A DNA stretch of 37,196 nucleotides from Rhizobium sp. (GTDB lineage: Bacteria > Pseudomonadota > Gammaproteobacteria > Xanthomonadales > Xanthomonadaceae): positions 1 to 37,196 of the forward strand of contig JAIBEO010000039.1 in assembly GCA_019459185.1 (NCBI GenBank), in the 5' to 3' direction. Of this stretch, positions 21,347 to 37,175 are shown piece after piece (positions within the stretch are counted from its first letter, which is position 1; each line of letters starts with the position of its first letter). The notes under the pieces are model-generated. The model saw only the letters and a list, made by a program, of their open reading frames with translations, had not been told where the DNA came from and did not search any database. The translations under genes were made by a program, and so were the position numbers.

Positions 21347-21448
21347 CATCGCAAAGCCCGGGGGCACCGGCGGGCAAACGCGCGGCACGACGCGGCCGGG
21401 CCCCGGGGCGGGGCCGACTGCGCGAAAGGAGGAGGAGGAGGAAGTGGC

Positions 21449-21798
21449 GGAGCCGGCCGCTAAGCCGGGTTCTGTCGTGGACAGTCATTCCTCTAGCCCC
21501 AGCGTCACCGCTGGGATCAAGCAACCAACCCGGGTGCGACACGAGCCATGCCATAGCACCCCTATTTGGTCTTGCTCCGGGTGGGGTTTGCCGTGCCCCG
21601 GGGCGTTGTCCCCCCGGGCGGTGGGCTCTTACCCCACCGTTTCGCCCTTACCACGCACCCTTGCGGGCCGTTCGGCGGTTTGTTTTCTGTTGCACTTTCC
21701 GTCGGCTCACGCCGCCCAGGCGTTACCTGGCACCCTGCTCTGTGGAGCCCGGACTTTCCTCGGCGCATTGCTGCGACGCGACTGTCTTGGCCGGCTCC
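21449..21798 (-). ncRNA. rnpB: RNase P RNA (bacterial class A)
   Basis: This is the catalytic RNA of RNase P, which matures tRNA 5' ends with the RnpA protein. On the minus strand the 5' part reads GGAGCCGGCCAAGACAGTCGC followed by the universal GAGGAAAGTCCGGGCTCC. Next come GGTAAGGGCGAAACGGTG and GTAAGAGCCCACCG. The 3' part has AGAGGAATGACTGTCC and ends GCTTAGCGGCCGGCTCC. The first and last ten bases are complementary (helix P1), which sets the ends near 21798 and 21449. The length of 350 nt fits proteobacterial class A. It is transcribed toward mraZ, 38 nt after the lipoprotein gene. Confidence 0.97.
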
Positions 21799-23253: not shown

Positions 23254-24990
23254 ATGCTGCGAACCGCCCCCCTGCTGCTCGCCCTCGCCCTGACCGCCGG
23301 CTGCGCCAGCGTGTCGGTGCAGAGCGAGCCCAGCGCGCCCCAGCGCTCCGCCGAACAATTGGCCGAAGCCGGCCAGCACGCGGAAGCCGCGCAGGCCTGG
23401 ACGCAGGTGGCCGAAGCCGGCCGCGGCAGCGCCCGCGACCGCGCCTGGCTGCAGGCCGCCGAACAGGCCCGCCTGGCCGGTGACCCCGAGAGCATGCGCG
23501 CGGCCTGGTCGCAGTCCAACCGCCGCCGGCTCGAGGGCAACGACACCTGGCGCCACGACCTCATCGGCGCGCAGCTGCAGGTCGAAGCCGGCCGCCCCGA
23601 GCAGGCCCTGGCCCTGCTTAGCCGGCCGGCTGAATCGGTGCCAGCCGCGCTGCGCGAGCGCTGGCATTCGCTGCGTGCCGCCGCGCTGCAGGCCGCGGGC
23701 CGCGGCTTCGAGGCCGCGGGCGAACTGGCCTTCCTCGACGCCCGGCTCGGCCGCACCGAGCGCGTGGACAACGCCCGCCGCATCGAGCGCCTGCTGTCCG
23801 CCGAATCCGACGCCAGCCTGGCCGCCAACAGCGCCGCGCTGCCGGTGGGCCACCCGCTCTACGCCTTCGCCGGCCGCGCGCTGGGCCAGCGTGGCCTGCC
23901 GCTGCCGCGTCCCTACGACCGCGGCGCGTCGGCGCCCGGGCTCGACACGCTGCCGCCGGCCGAAGCCGACGGCTATCGCCCGCCCGAGCGCCTGGCGGTG
24001 CTGCTGCCGCTGAGCGGCCCGCTCGCCGCCGCCGGCACGCCGGTGCGCGACGGCGTGCTGGCAGGGTATTACGCCGAACACCGCCGCCGCCCCGAGTTGC
24101 GCTTCTACGACACCGGCACCGCCGGCGGCGTGGCCGACGCGCTGGCCAAGGCCAGCGCCGACGGCGCGCAGATGATCCTTGGCCCGCTCAGCCGCGACGA
24201 AGTGAACGCGCTGTTCGGTTCGCCGCAGCTGGTGCTGCCGGCGATCGCGCTCAACCGCGGCACCGTGCCACCGCCGCCGGGCAGCGCCAGCTTCGCCATG
24301 GCGCCGGAAGACGAAGGTGTCGCTGCCGCCGACCGCCTGGTCGAGCGCGGCCTGCGCCGCGTGCTGGTGGTCACCCAGGCCGACGAAAACGCCCGTCGCG
24401 CGCTGGCCAGCTTCCGCGAGCGCCTGAAGGAACGCGGCGGCGAAATCACCGCCGAGGTCACGGTCGACGAAAACAACCCCGACTACGTCCCGGCGCTGCA
24501 GCAGGCCACGACCGGCGTGCGCCCCGAGGCGCTGTTCCTCCCCCTGAAGGCCGCGCAGGCGCGCCTGCTGTCGAGCCAGGTCGAACCCGCCGGCCTGCTC
24601 GGCGTGCCGCGTTTCGCCACCTCGCTGATCCTCTCGGGCGCGAACCTGCGCATGGACGTCGAGCTCGACGGCATCGAATACCCCGAGCTGCCCTGGCTGA
24701 TCGGCCTGCGCGGCGGCCTGCCCGACCCCGACACCATCGGCGACACCCTGCCCAGCGCGCAGGGCGGCGGCGCCCGCCTGTTCGCCTTCGGCGTGGACGC
24801 CTGGCGCCTGGCCGGTTACCTCGACCAGCTGGTGTCCGACCCGGGCGCGCAGGTGCGCGGCGCCACCGGCGAACTGCAGCTCGACCCGGTGGGCCAGGTG
24901 CTGCGCAAGCCGGCCTGGGCCGTGTTCAGCGGCGGCCGCCCGCGCCCGGCGCCGGACGGCGCGCTGCTGCCCGATGCCGGCACGCCCTGA
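23254..24990 (+). CDS. lpoA: LppC/LpoA-family lipoprotein, penicillin-binding protein activator
   Basis: LpoA is an outer-membrane lipoprotein that reaches through the wall to activate PBP1a. The product is 578 aa. The signal peptide has lipobox LTAGC (Cys16 lipidated). An Ala-rich helical N-domain (about 30-230, TPR-like) precedes a C-terminal periplasmic-binding-protein-like domain (about 245-560) beginning [16 protein letters not shown]. It is shorter than E. coli LpoA (678 aa), mainly in the N-domain. The start [17 protein letters not shown] is chosen because it opens the signal peptide. The 3' end overlaps yraN by 17 nt. The rsmI/lpoA/yraN order is common in gammaproteobacteria. Confidence 0.93.
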
Positions 24991-25342
24991 GAAGCGCGCC
25001 ACCGGCGATGCGGCCGAAGCGGCCGCGCGCGGCCTGCTCGAAGGCGAAGGCCTGCGGCTCATCGCCCGCAACGTCAACTACCGCTTCGGCGAACTCGACC
25101 TGGTGATGCGCGACGGCGACACGGTCGCCTTCGTGGAAGTGCGCTACCGCGCCGACGACCGCTACGGCGGCGGCCTGGCCTCGGTAGACCGCCGCAAATG
25201 CCGCCGCATCGCCCTCGCCGCCCGCGCCTGGCTGCAGCGCCACCCGGCCCTGGCCGACGCGCCCTGCCGCTTCGACATCGTCGCCGCCTCCCCCGCCGGC
25301 CTCGAATGGCACCGCGGGGCTTTCACGCTTGACGACCTGTGA
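24974..25342 (+). CDS. yraN: UPF0102 (YraN) family endonuclease-like protein
   Basis: A 122-aa protein with the restriction-endonuclease-like fold of YraN. Visible motifs are a [16 protein letters not shown] helix (about 11-26), [25 protein letters not shown] (about 35-59) with the Glu-Asp-Glu cluster, and [17 protein letters not shown]. The family is conserved near lpoA, but its role is unproven; a DNA repair or recombination nuclease is a common guess. It overlaps the lpoA 3' end by 17 nt. The palindromic element starts 22 nt after its stop. Confidence 0.92.
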
Positions 25343-25364: not shown

Positions 25365-25537
25365 TGAACGCGGATCAGGGCGGATGGAAGCGGATATAGG
25401 CAGATAGAGCGAATGGGCAGTGGATCACCTTGAAATGGTTGGTCCACGCAGGAAACTGAAAGCCAACCCGTCACATTCCCCCTCTTCTTTCCGATCTATT
25501 CGCCTTTATCCGCTTCCATCCGCCCTGATCCGCGTTG
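25365..25537. repeat. Palindromic GCGGAT element, copy 1
   Basis: The perfect 30-bp inverted arms are 25367-25396 and 25507-25536. The left arm is built of 10-bp units: GCGGATCAGG, GCGGATGGAA, GCGGATATAG, then the degenerate GCAGATAGAG. Partial complementarity continues about 15 bp further inward (AGGC..ATAGA on the left against the reverse complement of TCTATTCGCCTT on the right). The core of about 80 bp is non-repetitive, with a small nested inverted repeat (GTGGA 25420-25424 and TCCAC 25443-25447). It lies between yraN and the FAD-linked oxidase gene and fills most of that 221-nt gap. No open reading frame is present. It could act as a terminator or mRNA-stabilising hairpin, or be a small non-autonomous mobile repeat. 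Confidence 0.9.
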
Positions 25538-25563
25538 AATCAAGAACCCCGTATCATCCCGCC

Positions 25564-26952
25564 ATGGTCAATCTGCCCGCGAACCTCGCTGCGGAACTCA
25601 GGGCCCTGCTGCCGCCGGGCGGCTTGCTGCTGGATGCGGCGGAGCGGCTGGCCTACGGGTATGACAACTCGCGGCGGCAGGGATTGCCGCTGGCGGTTGC
25701 GCTGCCGACGGATGCGGCGCAGGTGCAGGCCATTGTCCGGCTGTGCCGCGTACACCGGCTGCCGATCGTCGCGCGTGGCCGCGGCACCAATACCACCGGC
25801 GCCAGCGTGCCGGGCGAGGATGCGCTGGTGGTGTCGTTCGAACGCATGAACCGCGTGCTGGCCATCCGCCCCGGCGACCGTGTGGCCGTGGTCGAGCCCG
25901 GCCTGCTCAACGGCGAACTTCAGGCCGCGCTGGCGCCGCACGGCCTGTTCTGGCCACCCGACCCCACCAGCGCCGGCTTCTGCAGCATCGGCGGCAACCT
26001 GGCCTGCAACGCCGGCGGCCCGCGCGCGGTGAAGTACGGCGCCACCCGCAACAACGTGCTGGCGCTCAAGGCCGTCACCGGCAGCGGCGAACTGGTCGAG
26101 TTCGGCGCCGCCACCACCAAGGGCGCCAGCGGCTACGACTTATCGCGCCTGCTGATCGGTTCGGAAGGCACGCTGGCGCTGATCGTCGAGGCCACGCTGA
26201 AACTCACCCCGCTCGCGCCGAAGCGCCGCGCCCTGCGCGCGCTCTACGCCGACGTGGAAAGCGCGGCCGCCGCCGTGGCGCGCCTGATGGCGCAGCCGGT
26301 CACTCCCTCGATGCTCGAGTTCATGGACGGCGACTGCGTGCGCCTGGCGCGCGAAGTGGGCGGCGCCGACCTGCCCGCCGACGCCGGCGCCCTGCTGATG
26401 ATCGAAGCCGACGGCGACGAAGCCTTGCTCGACGCCGCCGAAGCCGCGCTGCGCCAGGCCGCGCAGGGCCCGGGCTGCCTCGGCGTCGGCGCCGCCACCG
26501 ACGAGGCCGCGCGCGAAAAGCTCTGGGCCGCGCGCAAGGCGCTGTCGCCGGCGCTGCGCACGCTGGCGCCGGGCAAGATCAACGAGGACGTGGTGGTGCC
26601 GGTCTCGCGCATTCCCGAACTCGTCGCCGCGGTGCGCACCGCATCGGCCGCGCAATCACTGCCCATCGTCTGCTTCGGCCACGCCGGCAATGGCAACCTG
26701 CACGTGAACATCCTCTACGACCCCGCCGACGCCGCCCAGGCCGCGCGCGCCGGCGCGGCGCTGGAATCGGTGTTCGACGCGGTGATCGCGCTCGGCGGCC
26801 TGGTCTCGGGCGAACACGGCATCGGCCTGGTGAAGCGCGAACTGCTGGCGCGTTCGCTGACCCCGCCGACGCTGGCGCTGATGCGCGCGATCAAGGCGCA
26901 ATTCGACCCCGACGGCATCCTCAATCCGGGCAAGGTGCTGCCGCCCGCATGA
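25564..26952 (+). CDS. FAD-linked oxidase of the GlcD/D-2-hydroxyacid dehydrogenase family
   Basis: A 462-aa flavoprotein of the vanillyl-alcohol-oxidase superfamily, cytosolic or membrane-associated. The FAD-binding PCMH domain (about 35-215) has IVARGRGTNTTGASVP, DPTSAGFCSIGGNLACNAGGPRAVKYG and LLIGSEGTLALI. The C-terminal FAD-oxidase domain has GHAGNGNLHVNI (the metal-binding His pair), GLVSGEHGIGLVKRE and FDPDGILNPGKV. These are marks of D-lactate, glycolate or D-2-hydroxyglutarate dehydrogenases; the substrate cannot be told from sequence. No GlcE or GlcF partner is nearby. The ATG is at 25564, right after palindromic element 1. The stop overlaps the glycosylase-like gene (ATGA), so the two form a pair. 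Confidence 0.9.
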   Translation: MVNLPANLAAELRALLPPGGLLLDAAERLAYGYDNSRRQGLPLAVALPTDAAQVQAIVRLCRVHRLPIVARGRGTNTTGASVPGEDALVVSFERMNRVLAIRPGDRVAVVEPGLLNGELQAALAPHGLFWPPDPTSAGFCSIGGNLACNAGGPRAVKYGATRNNVLALKAVTGSGELVEFGAATTKGASGYDLSRLLIGSEGTLALIVEATLKLTPLAPKRRALRALYADVESAAAAVARLMAQPVTPSMLEFMDGDCVRLAREVGGADLPADAGALLMIEADGDEALLDAAEAALRQAAQGPGCLGVGAATDEAAREKLWAARKALSPALRTLAPGKINEDVVVPVSRIPELVAAVRTASAAQSLPIVCFGHAGNGNLHVNILYDPADAAQAARAGAALESVFDAVIALGGLVSGEHGIGLVKRELLARSLTPPTLALMRAIKAQFDPDGILNPGKVLPPA

Positions 26953-27554
26953 ACCGCCGCGCGCCCACCGCACTCGACACGCTGCTCACCGACATCCGCG
27001 CCTGCCGCCTGTGCGAGGCGAAGCTGCCGCTGGGCCCGCGCCCGGTGCTGCGCGCCAGCGCCACGGCGCGCCTGCTGGTGGTGGGCCAGGCGCCGGGCAC
27101 GCTGGTGCACGGCAGCGGCATTCCCTGGGACGACGCCAGCGGCGTGCGCCTGCGCGGCTGGCTGGGCCTGGACAAGGCGGCGTTCTACGACGAATCGCGC
27201 ATCGCCATCGTGCCCATGGGTTTCTGCTACCCGGGCCGCGGCGCCTCGGGCGACCTGCCGCCGCGCCCGGAATGCGCGCAAACCTGGCACCCGCGCCTGC
27301 TGCCGCTGATGCCCGACGTCGGCCTGGTGCTGGCCATCGGCCAGTACGCGCAGGCCTACTTCCTGGGCGCCAACCGCAAGAAAACCCTCACCGACACCGT
27401 GCAGGCCTGGCGCGACTACGCCCCGCGCGTATTCCCCCTGCCCCACCCCAGCCCGCGCAACACCGGCTGGTTCCTGCACAACCCCTGGTTCGACGCGGAA
27501 GTGGTCCCGGCGCTGAGGGCCAGGATCTCTGCGGTGATGGAGAGTGGGGTCTGA
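26949..27554 (+). CDS. Uracil-DNA glycosylase family protein with probable 4Fe-4S site
   Basis: A 201-aa protein of the uracil-DNA glycosylase superfamily. Four cysteines in the spacing C19-X2-C22 and C93-X15-C109 match the 4Fe-4S ligands of family 4 and 5 enzymes. The active-site region reads VVGQAPGTLVHGSGIPWDDASG (split about 44-65), where family 4 has GEAPG, and the late motif is HPSPRNTGW. The Glu-to-Gln change and the diverged PFVG region mean uracil excision is not assured. Proteins of this close type are widespread in proteobacteria and mostly uncharacterised. The ATG overlaps the oxidase stop (ATGA). The TGA stop is the first three bases of palindromic element 2. Confidence 0.82.
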   Translation: MNRRAPTALDTLLTDIRACRLCEAKLPLGPRPVLRASATARLLVVGQAPGTLVHGSGIPWDDASGVRLRGWLGLDKAAFYDESRIAIVPMGFCYPGRGASGDLPPRPECAQTWHPRLLPLMPDVGLVLAIGQYAQAYFLGANRKKTLTDTVQAWRDYAPRVFPLPHPSPRNTGWFLHNPWFDAEVVPALRARISAVMESGV

Positions 27555-27722
27555 ACGCGGATCAGAGCGGATTGATGCGGATAAAGGCGAATAGAGCGAA
27601 CTATAGGTTGCTCCCTGCGCACTCGGATCTTCGCCCGGACGTTCAGATCTCGCCGCGACCTACTGTGATCTTTTGCGCTTGATCCGCTCTTATCCGCATC
27701 AATCCGCTCTGATCCGCGTTCA
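27552..27722. repeat. Palindromic GCGGAT element, copy 2
   Basis: The perfect 33-bp inverted arms are 27552-27584 and 27690-27722, around a core of about 105 bp. The left arm units are GCGGATCAGA, GCGGATTGAT, GCGGATAAAG, then the degenerate GCGAATAGAG. The outermost TGA is the stop of the glycosylase-family gene and the outermost TCA is the pgpA stop on the other strand, so the element exactly fills the gap between convergent genes. The core has a nested GATCT/AGATC pair (27626-27630 and 27645-27649). A role as bidirectional transcription end or mRNA 3' stabiliser is likely from position, not proven. Confidence 0.9.
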
Positions 27723-28208
27723 AAAAACCAGAGCCGCGATCTGCAGCACAGCCAGGGCGTACGCGCCGGCCAGAGCGTCGTCGAGCATGGCGCCGAAGCC
27801 GCCGTGCAGTTTGCGGTCGGCCCAGCCCACGGGCCAGGGCTTGGCGATGTCGAACAGGCGGAACAGCACGAAGGCCGCCAGCATCCACGGCCAGCCGGCC
27901 GGCGCCGCCAGCAGCGCGATCCACATGCCGATGAATTCGTCCCAGACCACCATCGAAGGGTCTTCGATCTTCGTTTCGCGGATCACCCAGTGCGCGGCCC
28001 AGCAGCCCAGCGCGAAGCCCGCCGCCAGCACCGCCAGGTAGACCGGCAGCGACAAGTCCCTGAGCAGGAACCACCAGGGCAGCAGCGCGAACGCCGTGCC
28101 CACCGTACCCGGCGCCCAGGGCGAGAGGCCGCTGCCGAAACCGGCGGCCAGCCAGCCCAGCGGGTGCTTCATCAGGCGGCGGCGGATGCCGATCGGGGCG
28201 ACCGTCAC
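27720..28208 (-). CDS. pgpA: Phosphatidylglycerophosphatase A
   Basis: PgpA dephosphorylates phosphatidylglycerol phosphate to phosphatidylglycerol in the inner membrane. The product is 162 aa with about four transmembrane segments. Signatures are GFGSGLSPWAPGTVGT (about 23-38) and VVWDEFIGMWIAL (about 87-99) with its acidic pair, then LFDIAKPWP. The GTG start (28206-28208) overlaps the thiL stop as GTGA and matches the longer N-terminus of E. coli PgpA; an ATG 12 codons later is an alternative. It is the last gene of the riboflavin/thiamine operon. Confidence 0.95.
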   Translation of the reverse strand: MTVAPIGIRRRLMKHPLGWLAAGFGSGLSPWAPGTVGTAFALLPWWFLLRDLSLPVYLAVLAAGFALGCWAAHWVIRETKIEDPSMVVWDEFIGMWIALLAAPAGWPWMLAAFVLFRLFDIAKPWPVGWADRKLHGGFGAMLDDALAGAYALAVLQIAALVF

Positions 28209-37100: not shown

Positions 37101-37129
37101 GAAAAATGGGGGTCGGAAAAATGGGGGTC
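37101..37129. repeat. Tandem 15-bp direct repeat
   Basis: GAAAAATGGGGGTC occurs at 37101-37114 and 37116-37129, one base apart. The second copy supplies the start of the large palindrome arm, so an extra half-unit seems to have been duplicated. Confidence 0.7.
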
Positions 37130-37175
37130 AGAGTACTAATCCGCCCAAGCGGATTAGTACTCTGACCCCCTTTCT
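37123..37175. repeat. Perfect 22-bp palindrome of the GGGGTCAGAGTAC class, possible terminator of ettA
   Basis: The 22-bp arms at 37123-37144 and 37149-37170 are perfectly complementary around a CCAA loop. The outer part is GGGGGTCAGAGTACTAAT and the inner part CCGC. The right arm is followed by TTTCTTTT, so on the plus strand it can act as the ettA terminator. Repeats with GGGGTCAGAGTAC ends are familiar next to REP-associated tyrosine transposase genes in gammaproteobacteria. None is visible before the window ends 21 nt later. Confidence 0.75.

Follow-up and report, generated by a model that had tools for sequence, protein, structure and literature searches.

Our analysis makes it probable that the two palindromic elements in the window, i.e. 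the whole 37,196-nucleotide stretch of DNA analysed here from a genome of the genus Arenimonas, belong to a dispersed palindrome family as its non-coding members, with a GxxExxY gene as the coding copy, in a partnership similar to that of REPINs and RAYTs with an unrelated nuclease. Each element is about 170 bp long and consists of inverted arms of 10-bp CGGATNNNNN units (25367-25536 and 27552-27722; Table 1). The arms of element 1 measure 45 nt each, are 91% complementary and lie 80 nt apart, those of element 2 measure 47 nt, are 89% complementary and lie 77 nt apart. The initial annotation had described these arms as perfect, which is true for the outer 25 nt counted from the first CGGAT, identical between both arms in each element, but not for the imperfect full-length arms. 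Its unit, GCGGAT repeated every 10 bp, was correct regarding the spacing but is better written as CGGAT plus 5, because G, A and T each precede CGGAT. With up to one mismatch allowed, GCGGATNNNNGCGGAT was found 13 times in the window, 12 times inside the two elements, compared to 0.66 matches expected from shuffles; the paired palindromic elements are therefore real. A six-frame search of the genome revealed no GxxExxY match in the two cores. The elements can also not be assigned to an Rfam family, since the only window match above the gathering score was the RNase P RNA at 21445-21798.

Table 1. Positions of the two elements and their neighbouring genes in the window.
Feature	Position	Strand	Remark
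Left-neighbour gene, outside element	24974..25342	+	presumably YraN-type
Element 1, left arm	25367..25411	+	subtype A, 10-bp units
Element 1, core	25412..25491	.	non-conserved
Element 1, right arm	25492..25536	-	inverted
Resident gene between elements, outside element	25564..26952	+	presumably FAD-linked oxidase
Resident gene between elements, outside element	26949..27554	+	presumably uracil-DNA-glycosylase-like (UDG-like)
Element 2, left arm	27552..27598	+	starts with TGA (27552-27554), which serves as stop codon for the UDG-like gene upstream
Element 2, core	27599..27675	.	non-conserved
Element 2, right arm	27676..27722	-	ends with TCA (27720-27722), which serves the convergent PgpA-like gene (minus strand) as stop codon
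Convergent right-neighbour gene, outside element	27720..28208	-	presumably PgpA-like

The genes enclosed by the elements were initially regarded as a two-gene cassette. This view is rejected, because the genes for the FAD oxidase and the UDG-like protein are syntenic residents that stand side by side in all 14 relatives fetched, including G019 and G016, which lack both elements. Many copies of the palindrome exist in the genome, where the pattern matched exactly 58 times (reversed control, 0) and 163 times with one mismatch allowed (control, 10); at least 24 paired copies were counted in the stretches fetched, so the family is not restricted to the two copies of the window. The arms are built from about 3 to 5 periodic units, while the cores look unrelated by inspection between most copies, with the short type B cores resembling each other. 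Hence, the initial proposal that the arms are conserved whereas the cores vary is borne out across the copies of this repeat family. Different palindromes (GGGGTCAGAG) sit inside the cores of loci L017 and L020. In agreement with the initial annotation, no name for the family was found in the open-licence literature, searches with the repeat strings yielded nothing relevant, and the strings are absent from PMC12306157 according to a string search. A primer in the accessible part of a Bacteroides paper contains a string similar to the repeat.

One copy of the family, at locus L022, holds a GxxExxY gene between the same arms (ORF 2131-2574), the first and last codons of which sit in or beyond the arms. 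Its protein belongs to TIGR04256 (E 1.2e-37; 128.9 bits, curated cut-off 35) and PF13366, PDDEXK_3 (E 5.3e-39; 133.6 bits, curated cut-off 22), far over both cut-offs, a membership that concerns this coding copy and not the two copies of the window. Among 22 sequences the residues E33, D72, E82 and K84 are invariant and form a conserved E...D...ExK pattern, which likely represents the catalytic residues. In the AF2 model (pLDDT 87.7) the protein is predicted to be a Cas4/Hjc-like PD-(D/E)XK nuclease. The closest solved folds retrieved by Foldseek were SSO0001 (E 2.2e-4), which we take to be a Cas4, and the archaeal Hjc (E 6e-4). However, the likeness is one of fold only, with query TM-scores of 0.38 to 0.54 and Hjc rows of Z below 8, named "common" by the tool, and when solved structures were searched by sequence, no match fell below E 0.3. 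Weak Cas4 profile matches were obtained for locus L053 (E 0.0015 with PADLOC, 0.024 with Pfam).

All five genomes of the genus that have GxxExxY carry one such gene within the same arms at a single locus, just upstream of the same ILIANRGEIA gene, and this locus recurs in six further gammaproteobacterial records. Two plasmid searches gave 8 records with a match in each; one of these records, L217, looks like chromosomal DNA filed as plasmid, because it carries thrA, radA and asparaginase genes. One query against phages gave no GxxExxY match. Flanking repeats are unmentioned in the accessible portions of the literature retrieved for GxxExxY by name or accession.

As judged from genomic sequence, both the linkage between arms and GxxExxY and the inheritance of arm type together with protein clade extend over several phyla. 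Periodic inverted arms bracket the gene in 30 of 35 loci compared to 3 of 399 shifted intervals, and for the class loci in all at 55 of 70, with 15 falling under the arm threshold. In the set from several phyla they occur at 51 of 80 loci compared to 7 of 812 shifted intervals, with 29 loci under the threshold; the flanks of separate loci have repeats in common and reach 15.5 at the 95% level. By inspection, the units point outwards in 5 of 51 loci (L085, L106, L117, L119 and L139). From 153 loci examined, 108 passed the arm threshold, of which 92 were typed and 16 were untypable; over the typed loci the arm type follows the protein tree with 3 changes, compared to a mean of 35.6 and a minimum of 30 after shuffling. 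Units that end in T recur every 9 to 10 bp, those that end in G every 8 to 9 bp. Therefore, the initial idea that a 10-bp period places the units on one face of the helix is weakened and does not generalise to the related arms. Identical arms can also surround a decayed or shortened GxxExxY gene, as found at L231 and L239; among GxxExxY fragments tested elsewhere, only 3 of 10 had arms at the threshold. The cores of most copies show no resemblance to the GxxExxY gene.

Furthermore, dispersed copies are commoner, and tend to be abundant, in genomes that possess a GxxExxY gene flanked by arms of the matching type. Within the genus, GxxExxY was found in 5 of 27 genomes, which contain 7, 24, 41, 59 and 130 arm triplets, compared to 0 to 19 in the 22 others (Mann-Whitney p 2e-4); arms without a detected gene occur in G011 (19), G002 (9), G013 (8), G022 (5), G019 and G020 (3 each) and G003 (1). 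Arms of the CACAGAG type gave at most 2 matches per genome in 20 genomes without GxxExxY and up to 137 in genomes with it (p 4e-7), where the resident genomes were chosen by eye and L075 (G269, 119 matches) was counted as non-resident though CACAGAG arms sit just beyond the 160-nt limit. For CGCAAAT arms, 188, 112, 39 and 25 matches were found in the four genomes in which the GxxExxY locus that was read shows arms of this type (p 0.0009); the reversed control gave 18, 21, 10 and 10 matches in these residents, perhaps as the arms partly contain the control. Since this control is not silent, the case of G397 (25 compared to 10) is weak. G123 has 44 CGCAAAT matches without a recognised matching gene, while G026, with 0 matches for both arm types, was left out of the statistics. 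In another family, f173, the counts are 3 to 127 in 9 genomes with GxxExxY and 0 to 11 in 8 without (p 0.001), the 11 belonging to G440, where no GxxExxY was detected.

It appears unlikely that GxxExxY is mere cargo of palindromes that are spread by another enzyme such as a Y1/RAYT transposase, by recombination or by template switching. Such a passenger role would fit to the genomes with arms but without a detected GxxExxY gene, and also to the distribution of Y1_Tnp genes, which are present in 21 of 27 genus genomes in numbers that correlate with the arm count (rho 0.64). However, in the loci read, arms were found at none of the four Y1 genes of the genome, with one copy about 5 kb off on C241, and a different repeat, GGGGTCAGAG, flanks the Y1 gene of L011 on both sides and also stands alone as palindrome. 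Moreover, five genomes with 2 to 4 Y1 genes lack arm triplets (G004, G008, G009, G016 and G018), genomes with GxxExxY are richer in arms even among those with at least 3 Y1 genes (p 0.007), and cargo would hardly retain the same kind of arms across several phyla.

In PMC2817692, RAYT genes are described as low-copy genes set between two inverted copies of an extragenic, dispersed palindrome, gene and repeat being co-inherited, and the tetranucleotide GT(A/G)G as a feature of REPs. GxxExxY is likewise a low-copy gene bracketed by and co-inherited with repeats of a dispersed kind, taking the place of the RAYT, but it encodes a PD-(D/E)XK protein instead of a Y1 transposase. The arms comprise several periodic units whereas a REP is one short palindrome, and they have no GT(A/G)G head: GTAG or GTGG occurs within 60 nt in 2 of 46 arms, with a chance of about 0.45 per arm under equal base use. 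A RAYT as partner of the arms, which the initial annotation had considered, is thus rejected in view of the Y1 genes without arms in the loci read, the repeat at L011 and the missing head, despite the correlation in numbers. Together with the cassette it is the part of the earlier reading that fell, while the repeat family, its conserved arms and variable cores and its placement at gene 3' ends stood. Classical MITEs are similarly short and non-coding with inverted ends, but the cores look unrelated between most copies here. At the two window loci neither an insertion event nor a clean empty site with a target-site duplication was seen, and the G019 sites may hold remnants.

The placement of the copies might alternatively indicate a service to the host, with the elements forming hairpins in RNA or structures in DNA at the ends of genes for mRNA 3' protection or nucleoid binding and GxxExxY as a processing nuclease domesticated with them, which we regard as about as improbable as the passenger role. 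The proposed mapping against gene 3' ends showed that, of 24 classed copies, 21 lie at most 30 nt from such an end, element 2 provides the stop codons of both neighbouring genes, and GxxExxY stayed at one locus in the genus like a useful gene. The classes were derived from a rough gene calling by GC position, which missed the UDG-like gene beside element 2, though its convergent class is still right. For type A (13 copies), the spacers of one arm resemble those of the partner arm in the same copy (0.77) more than those in other copies (0.61; 0 of 5000 permutations), with the units being 0.99 alike in both comparisons; this is expected if pairing is kept, but a shared recent source would do likewise, and no such effect was seen for type B (8 copies; 596 of 5000 permutations). 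The orientation of the flanking genes (9 convergent, 14 tandem and 1 divergent) is only modestly biased, because neighbouring gene pairs in general comprise 30 convergent, 108 tandem and 30 divergent ones. An intrinsic terminator is ruled out by a T run following the hairpin in 0 of 23 copies, 8 having an A run, and the presence of the elements at the two window sites varies among relatives. Finally, it is very improbable that GxxExxY genes or their carriers simply prefer existing palindromes as landing place, because, although the GGGGTCAGAG palindromes nested in L017 and L020 indicate that insertion into cores does occur, arm type is almost constant inside protein clades, the L022 gene reaches into or beyond its arms, and the gene keeps one locus in the genus and the six further records.

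Collectively, the pairing of a nuclease gene with matching palindromes in several phyla points to a system, undescribed until now, by which such repeats are spread or maintained, and we infer that the nuclease moves the palindromes. The GxxExxY protein would recognise the arms, probably when extruded as a hairpin or cruciform, via the 5- to 7-nt units repeated in them and cut at this place; during repair or replication of the cut intermediate, the palindrome could be copied elsewhere, preferentially next to gene 3' ends, as little harm arises there. By analogy with RAYTs and REPINs, a low-copy, mostly immobile helper gene would sustain a population of non-coding palindromes, although enzyme and repeat design are different. 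More tentatively, at somewhat less than even confidence, GxxExxY proteins might act as helper enzymes for a second class of bacterial mobile palindromes that is independent of RAYTs. Each nuclease lineage would then have a periodic arm unit of its own to recognise (ending in GAT/AAT, GAG/AAG or GAA/AAA), and by cutting the extruded hairpin it would seed non-coding palindrome families, including many anonymous periodic intergenic repeats.

If true, both the non-autonomous element and the enzyme mobilising it would be of a new kind. Linking repeats and nuclease provides a hypothesis on the function of a widespread, unnamed and uncharacterised nuclease family and an origin for the periodic palindromic repeats of several phyla. 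Moreover, an independent counterpart to REPINs and RAYTs is offered, hence the principle of one helper gene keeping a population of short palindromes could be tested in two unrelated systems.

The two palindromic elements that the initial annotation placed in the window are present and belong to the same subtype (see table below). In each of them the two arms agree fully over their outer 25 nt, counted from the first CGGAT, but the whole arms are not perfect inverted repeats, being complementary to 91% and 89%. The doublet GCGGATNNNNGCGGAT, searched with at most one mismatch, has 13 matches in the window, of which 12 fall within the elements, at an expectation of 0.66. Across the whole genome, 58 exact matches were obtained versus 0 for the reversed control, and 163 versus 10 with 1 mismatch. 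Elsewhere in the window, a class A bacterial RNase P RNA is encoded on the minus strand at 21445-21798.

Coordinates of the elements, the coding copy and further palindromes (G000, the window's own genome; C120, one of its contigs; L017 and L020, fetched loci)
Feature	Location	Arm length	Between arms	Remark
First window element	window 25367-25536	45 nt	80 nt	subtype A
Second window element	window 27552-27722	47 nt	77 nt	subtype A
Coding copy with GxxExxY gene	G000:C120:5117-5552			436 bp between outermost units
Palindrome GGGGTCAGAGTACTAATCCGC...GCGGATTAGTACTCTGACCCC	window about 37124-37170			close to the contig's end
Y1-type GGGGTCAGAGAACATA palindrome	L017 2363-2407			nested in the core of a subtype B element
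Y1-type GGGGTCAGAGAACATA palindrome	L020 13322-13366			nested in the core of a subtype B element

Scanning the window and 35 fetched stretches around listed match places and Y1 (tyrosine transposase) genes revealed, among the matches listed, at least 24 copies in the own genome in which a reverse array comes after a forward one. Twelve more single arrays were found, 7 at contig ends, 3 with a worn partner (L025, L029, L038) and 2 doublets (L014, L036) that seem to have arisen by chance; the ends of contigs C72, C103 and C241 share the same sequence, so that some contig-end copies may be double-counted. Two subtypes exist, A with the ends TTGAACGCGGATCA and B with the ends TTTTTGCCACGGATTTACGCGGATGAACGCGGATA, and the cores differ among most copies, in agreement with the variable cores described initially. 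In the draft genome, contigs C1, C70, C71, C72, C77, C103, C160 and C241 end within or beside these palindromes, as if they break the assembly. Spacer agreement in 13 type A copies was 0.77 within a copy versus 0.61 between copies, and 0 of 5000 permutations reached the observed whole-arm mean; the units agreed at 0.99 within and between copies alike. The 8 type B copies showed no within-copy excess of spacer agreement (596 of 5000 permutations). This comparison suggests that the units are kept for their sequence, and that the type A spacers match either through pairing or through a recent common origin.

The gene context was inspected for 25 copies with rough gene calling, one of them not being classable. 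The 24 classed copies are situated in 9 convergent, 14 tandem and 1 divergent gene pairs, the neighbouring gene pairs of the same stretches overall being 30 convergent, 108 tandem and 30 divergent. A gene 3' end is located at most 30 nt from the outermost CGGAT in 21 of these 24, and the two ends of the second window element provide the stop codons of both neighbour genes. A role as intrinsic terminators was rejected, because a T run after the hairpin occurs in 0 of 23 copies. The cores of L023, L025, L029 and L034 contain, by eye, strong GC-rich hairpins and then T runs, i.e. intrinsic-terminator-like structures enclosed by the arms.

The enclosed genes, presumably encoding a FAD oxidase and an UDG-like protein, had been regarded as a two-gene cassette bracketed by the paired elements. 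The UDG-like gene occurs in 16 of 27 Arenimonas genomes, the own genome counted, and synteny was compared in 14 fetched relatives having it. Both genes are adjacent in all 14; what we take to be a YraN gene precedes them in 12, and a presumed PgpA-like gene follows in 13, 7 of which have 0.7 to 1.6 kb of other DNA inserted before it. The elements vary among the relatives: neither site holds one in G019 and G016, G022 has a single element, located behind the UDG-like gene, and in G011 both sites are occupied by subtype B elements instead of the window's subtype A. The sites in G019 may hold remnants of lost elements. Hence, the cassette was abandoned. Because the relatives differ in elements yet share the gene order, the two sites were thus filled or rewritten independently and the enclosed genes are ordinary residents.

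One copy in the own genome (locus L022) is coding. Its protein of 147 residues starts inside the left arm and extends past the right one, and its matches to TIGR04256 (128.9 bits, cut-off 35) and PF13366 PDDEXK_3 (133.6 bits, cut-off 22) identify it by sequence as a GxxExxY protein, the sole one, with no further GxxExxY matches in this genome. The gene occurs in 5 of 27 genus genomes, once per genome, Arenimonas sp. SCN 70-307 and Arenimonas metalli CF5-1 among them. Arms of this kind clearly bracket it at 4 of the 5 loci, those at L052 being weak (score 12). The ILIANRGEIA gene, which we take to encode a biotin carboxylase, adjoins GxxExxY at all 5 loci, follows it in the gammaproteobacterial loci L086, L087, L088, L096, L097 and L142 (Thermomonas and Luteimonas included), and lies downstream in 3 Anaerolineae records (L104, L136, L159). 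In total it was found beside GxxExxY at 16 of the 85 loci examined, with L083 and L084 among these duplicating L049 and L048. The Anaerolineae pairing may go back to an ancient common block, to transfer or to a functional relationship.

The number of arm triplets is related to this gene, since the five GxxExxY genomes contain 7, 24, 41, 59 and 130 versus 0 to 19 in the 22 without it (p 2e-4), 7 of which have at least one; the related genome G033 outside the genus, kept apart from this comparison, has 11. In the family f173 of the same class, CGCRAATNNNCGCRAAT has 3 to 127 matches in 9 GxxExxY genomes versus 0 to 11 in 8 without (p 0.001). A RAYT partner had also been considered. Y1 genes are present in 21 of 27 genus genomes and their number correlates with the arm count (rho 0.64); among genomes with at least 3 Y1 genes, arms are more numerous where GxxExxY is present (p 0.007), and at the loci read in the own genome arms flank 0 of 4 Y1 genes, which speaks against such a partner. 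The Y1 gene at L011 is bracketed by GGGGTCAGAGAACATA, the one at L009 has a GGGGTCAGAGAACATA-like sequence on the one readable side, and such sequences also occur as stand-alone palindromes; a similar one lies at the contig start in L041. The palindrome near the end of the window shares its start with a sequence behind the L009 Y1 gene, and therefore probably belongs to another, Y1-linked (REP-like) repeat family.

The gene was found in 63 of 369 gammaproteobacterial genomes. Among 70 class loci (30 + 40) examined of 92 listed places outside the own genome, 55 showed inverted arms over the score threshold of 14. In the first 35 loci, genus included, arms occurred at 30 (at 26 of the 30 class loci) versus 3 of 399 shifted intervals; a harder control using flanks from different loci, which share repeats, gave a median of 8, a 95% level of 15.5 and a maximum of 28. 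L075 was scored as a miss, its arms lying just beyond the distance limit on reading, and some class loci have a whole palindrome on each side of the gene. Named genome contigs were also scanned with five related GxxExxY proteins, and among the best 80 of 587 relatives kept, arms were found at 51 versus 7 of 812 shifted intervals, the set including, by record title, Chloroflexota, Acidobacteriota, Bacteroidota, Ignavibacteria and Planctomycetota. By inspection, the units point outwards in 5 of these 51. An in-frame stop codon lies within the GxxExxY stretch of L124 and L135 (other phyla), either as decayed copies or assembly errors.

Units end in GAT/AAT (T) with periods of 9 to 10, GAG/AAG (G) with 8 to 9, or GAA/AAA (A) with mostly 9. 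Among 153 loci, 108 were over threshold, and an arm type was assignable to 92 of these (48 T, 35 G, 9 A), the T group being over-represented as the best-80 loci were collected by querying with a single protein clade. Along the protein tree, arm type changes 3 times, compared to a mean of 35.6 and a minimum of 30 over 200 shuffles of the labels, and in the class set alone the units are of type G at all 29 typed loci with GLLE proteins. These few changes show that the gene is inherited together with its arms as one unit; co-inheritance alone is no proof of recognition. Ten loci with GxxExxY fragments were tested, of which L231, L239 and L240 were over threshold, L236 reached 13.5, L232 reached 12 and five stayed below 10. 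Identical arms of 29 nt delimit the 297-bp element of L239, where the gene is recognisable at profile positions 48-111 only, and identical 31-nt arms the 406-bp copy of L231 (positions 75-114 only). Therefore, arms can remain intact where the gene between them has been lost, as would be seen if coding copies gave rise to the non-coding ones.

Two patterns were counted in 51 genomes with at most one mismatch. CACAGAGNNCACAGAG has up to 137 matches in 30 class genomes with GxxExxY versus at most 2 in each of 20 without (p 4e-7), and 4 to 137 in the nine genomes with CACAGAG/CACGGAG arms at the read locus versus 0 to 119 in the other 21 (p 0.001). CGCAAATNNNCGCAAAT has 188, 112, 39 and 25 matches in the four genomes with arms of this kind at the read locus, versus 0 to 44 in the other 26 GxxExxY genomes (p 0.0009); the 20 genomes lacking the gene have 0 to 4. 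Its reversed control gave 18, 21, 10 and 10 in these four residents, which leaves G397 (25 versus 10) a weak one. Exceptions are G123 (44 matches), where this arm type was seen at none of several GxxExxY genes, G183 (20) and G397, in which both patterns occur alongside more than one GxxExxY gene.

A structure model from 22 sequences (pLDDT 87.7, pTM 0.81) found SSO0001 (E 2.2e-4), presumably a Cas4, and archaeal Hjc Holliday junction resolvases (E 6e-4) as best solved structures in Foldseek; VIA gave Z 9.1 for SSO0001 (rmsd 5.5, 108 aligned) and at most 6.9 for Hjc, a level the tool calls common. The residues E33, D72, E82 and K84 are invariant in all 22 sequences. GxxExxY is most likely an active nuclease of a kind acting on branched or frayed DNA. 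Open-access literature contained nothing relevant when queried with the repeat sequences, and nothing relevant to these repeats under REP, RAYT and Arenimonas. Probably, GxxExxY would recognise the arm units and cut an extruded hairpin or cruciform, and repair would copy the palindrome into new places. RAYT genes are reported to be always flanked by two inverted REPs (PMC2817692), and this helper-gene design is common to RAYT-REPs and GxxExxY-arms. However, the window elements are not REPINs, because enzyme class and repeat of the GxxExxY system are other; by analogy, they probably work like REPINs.
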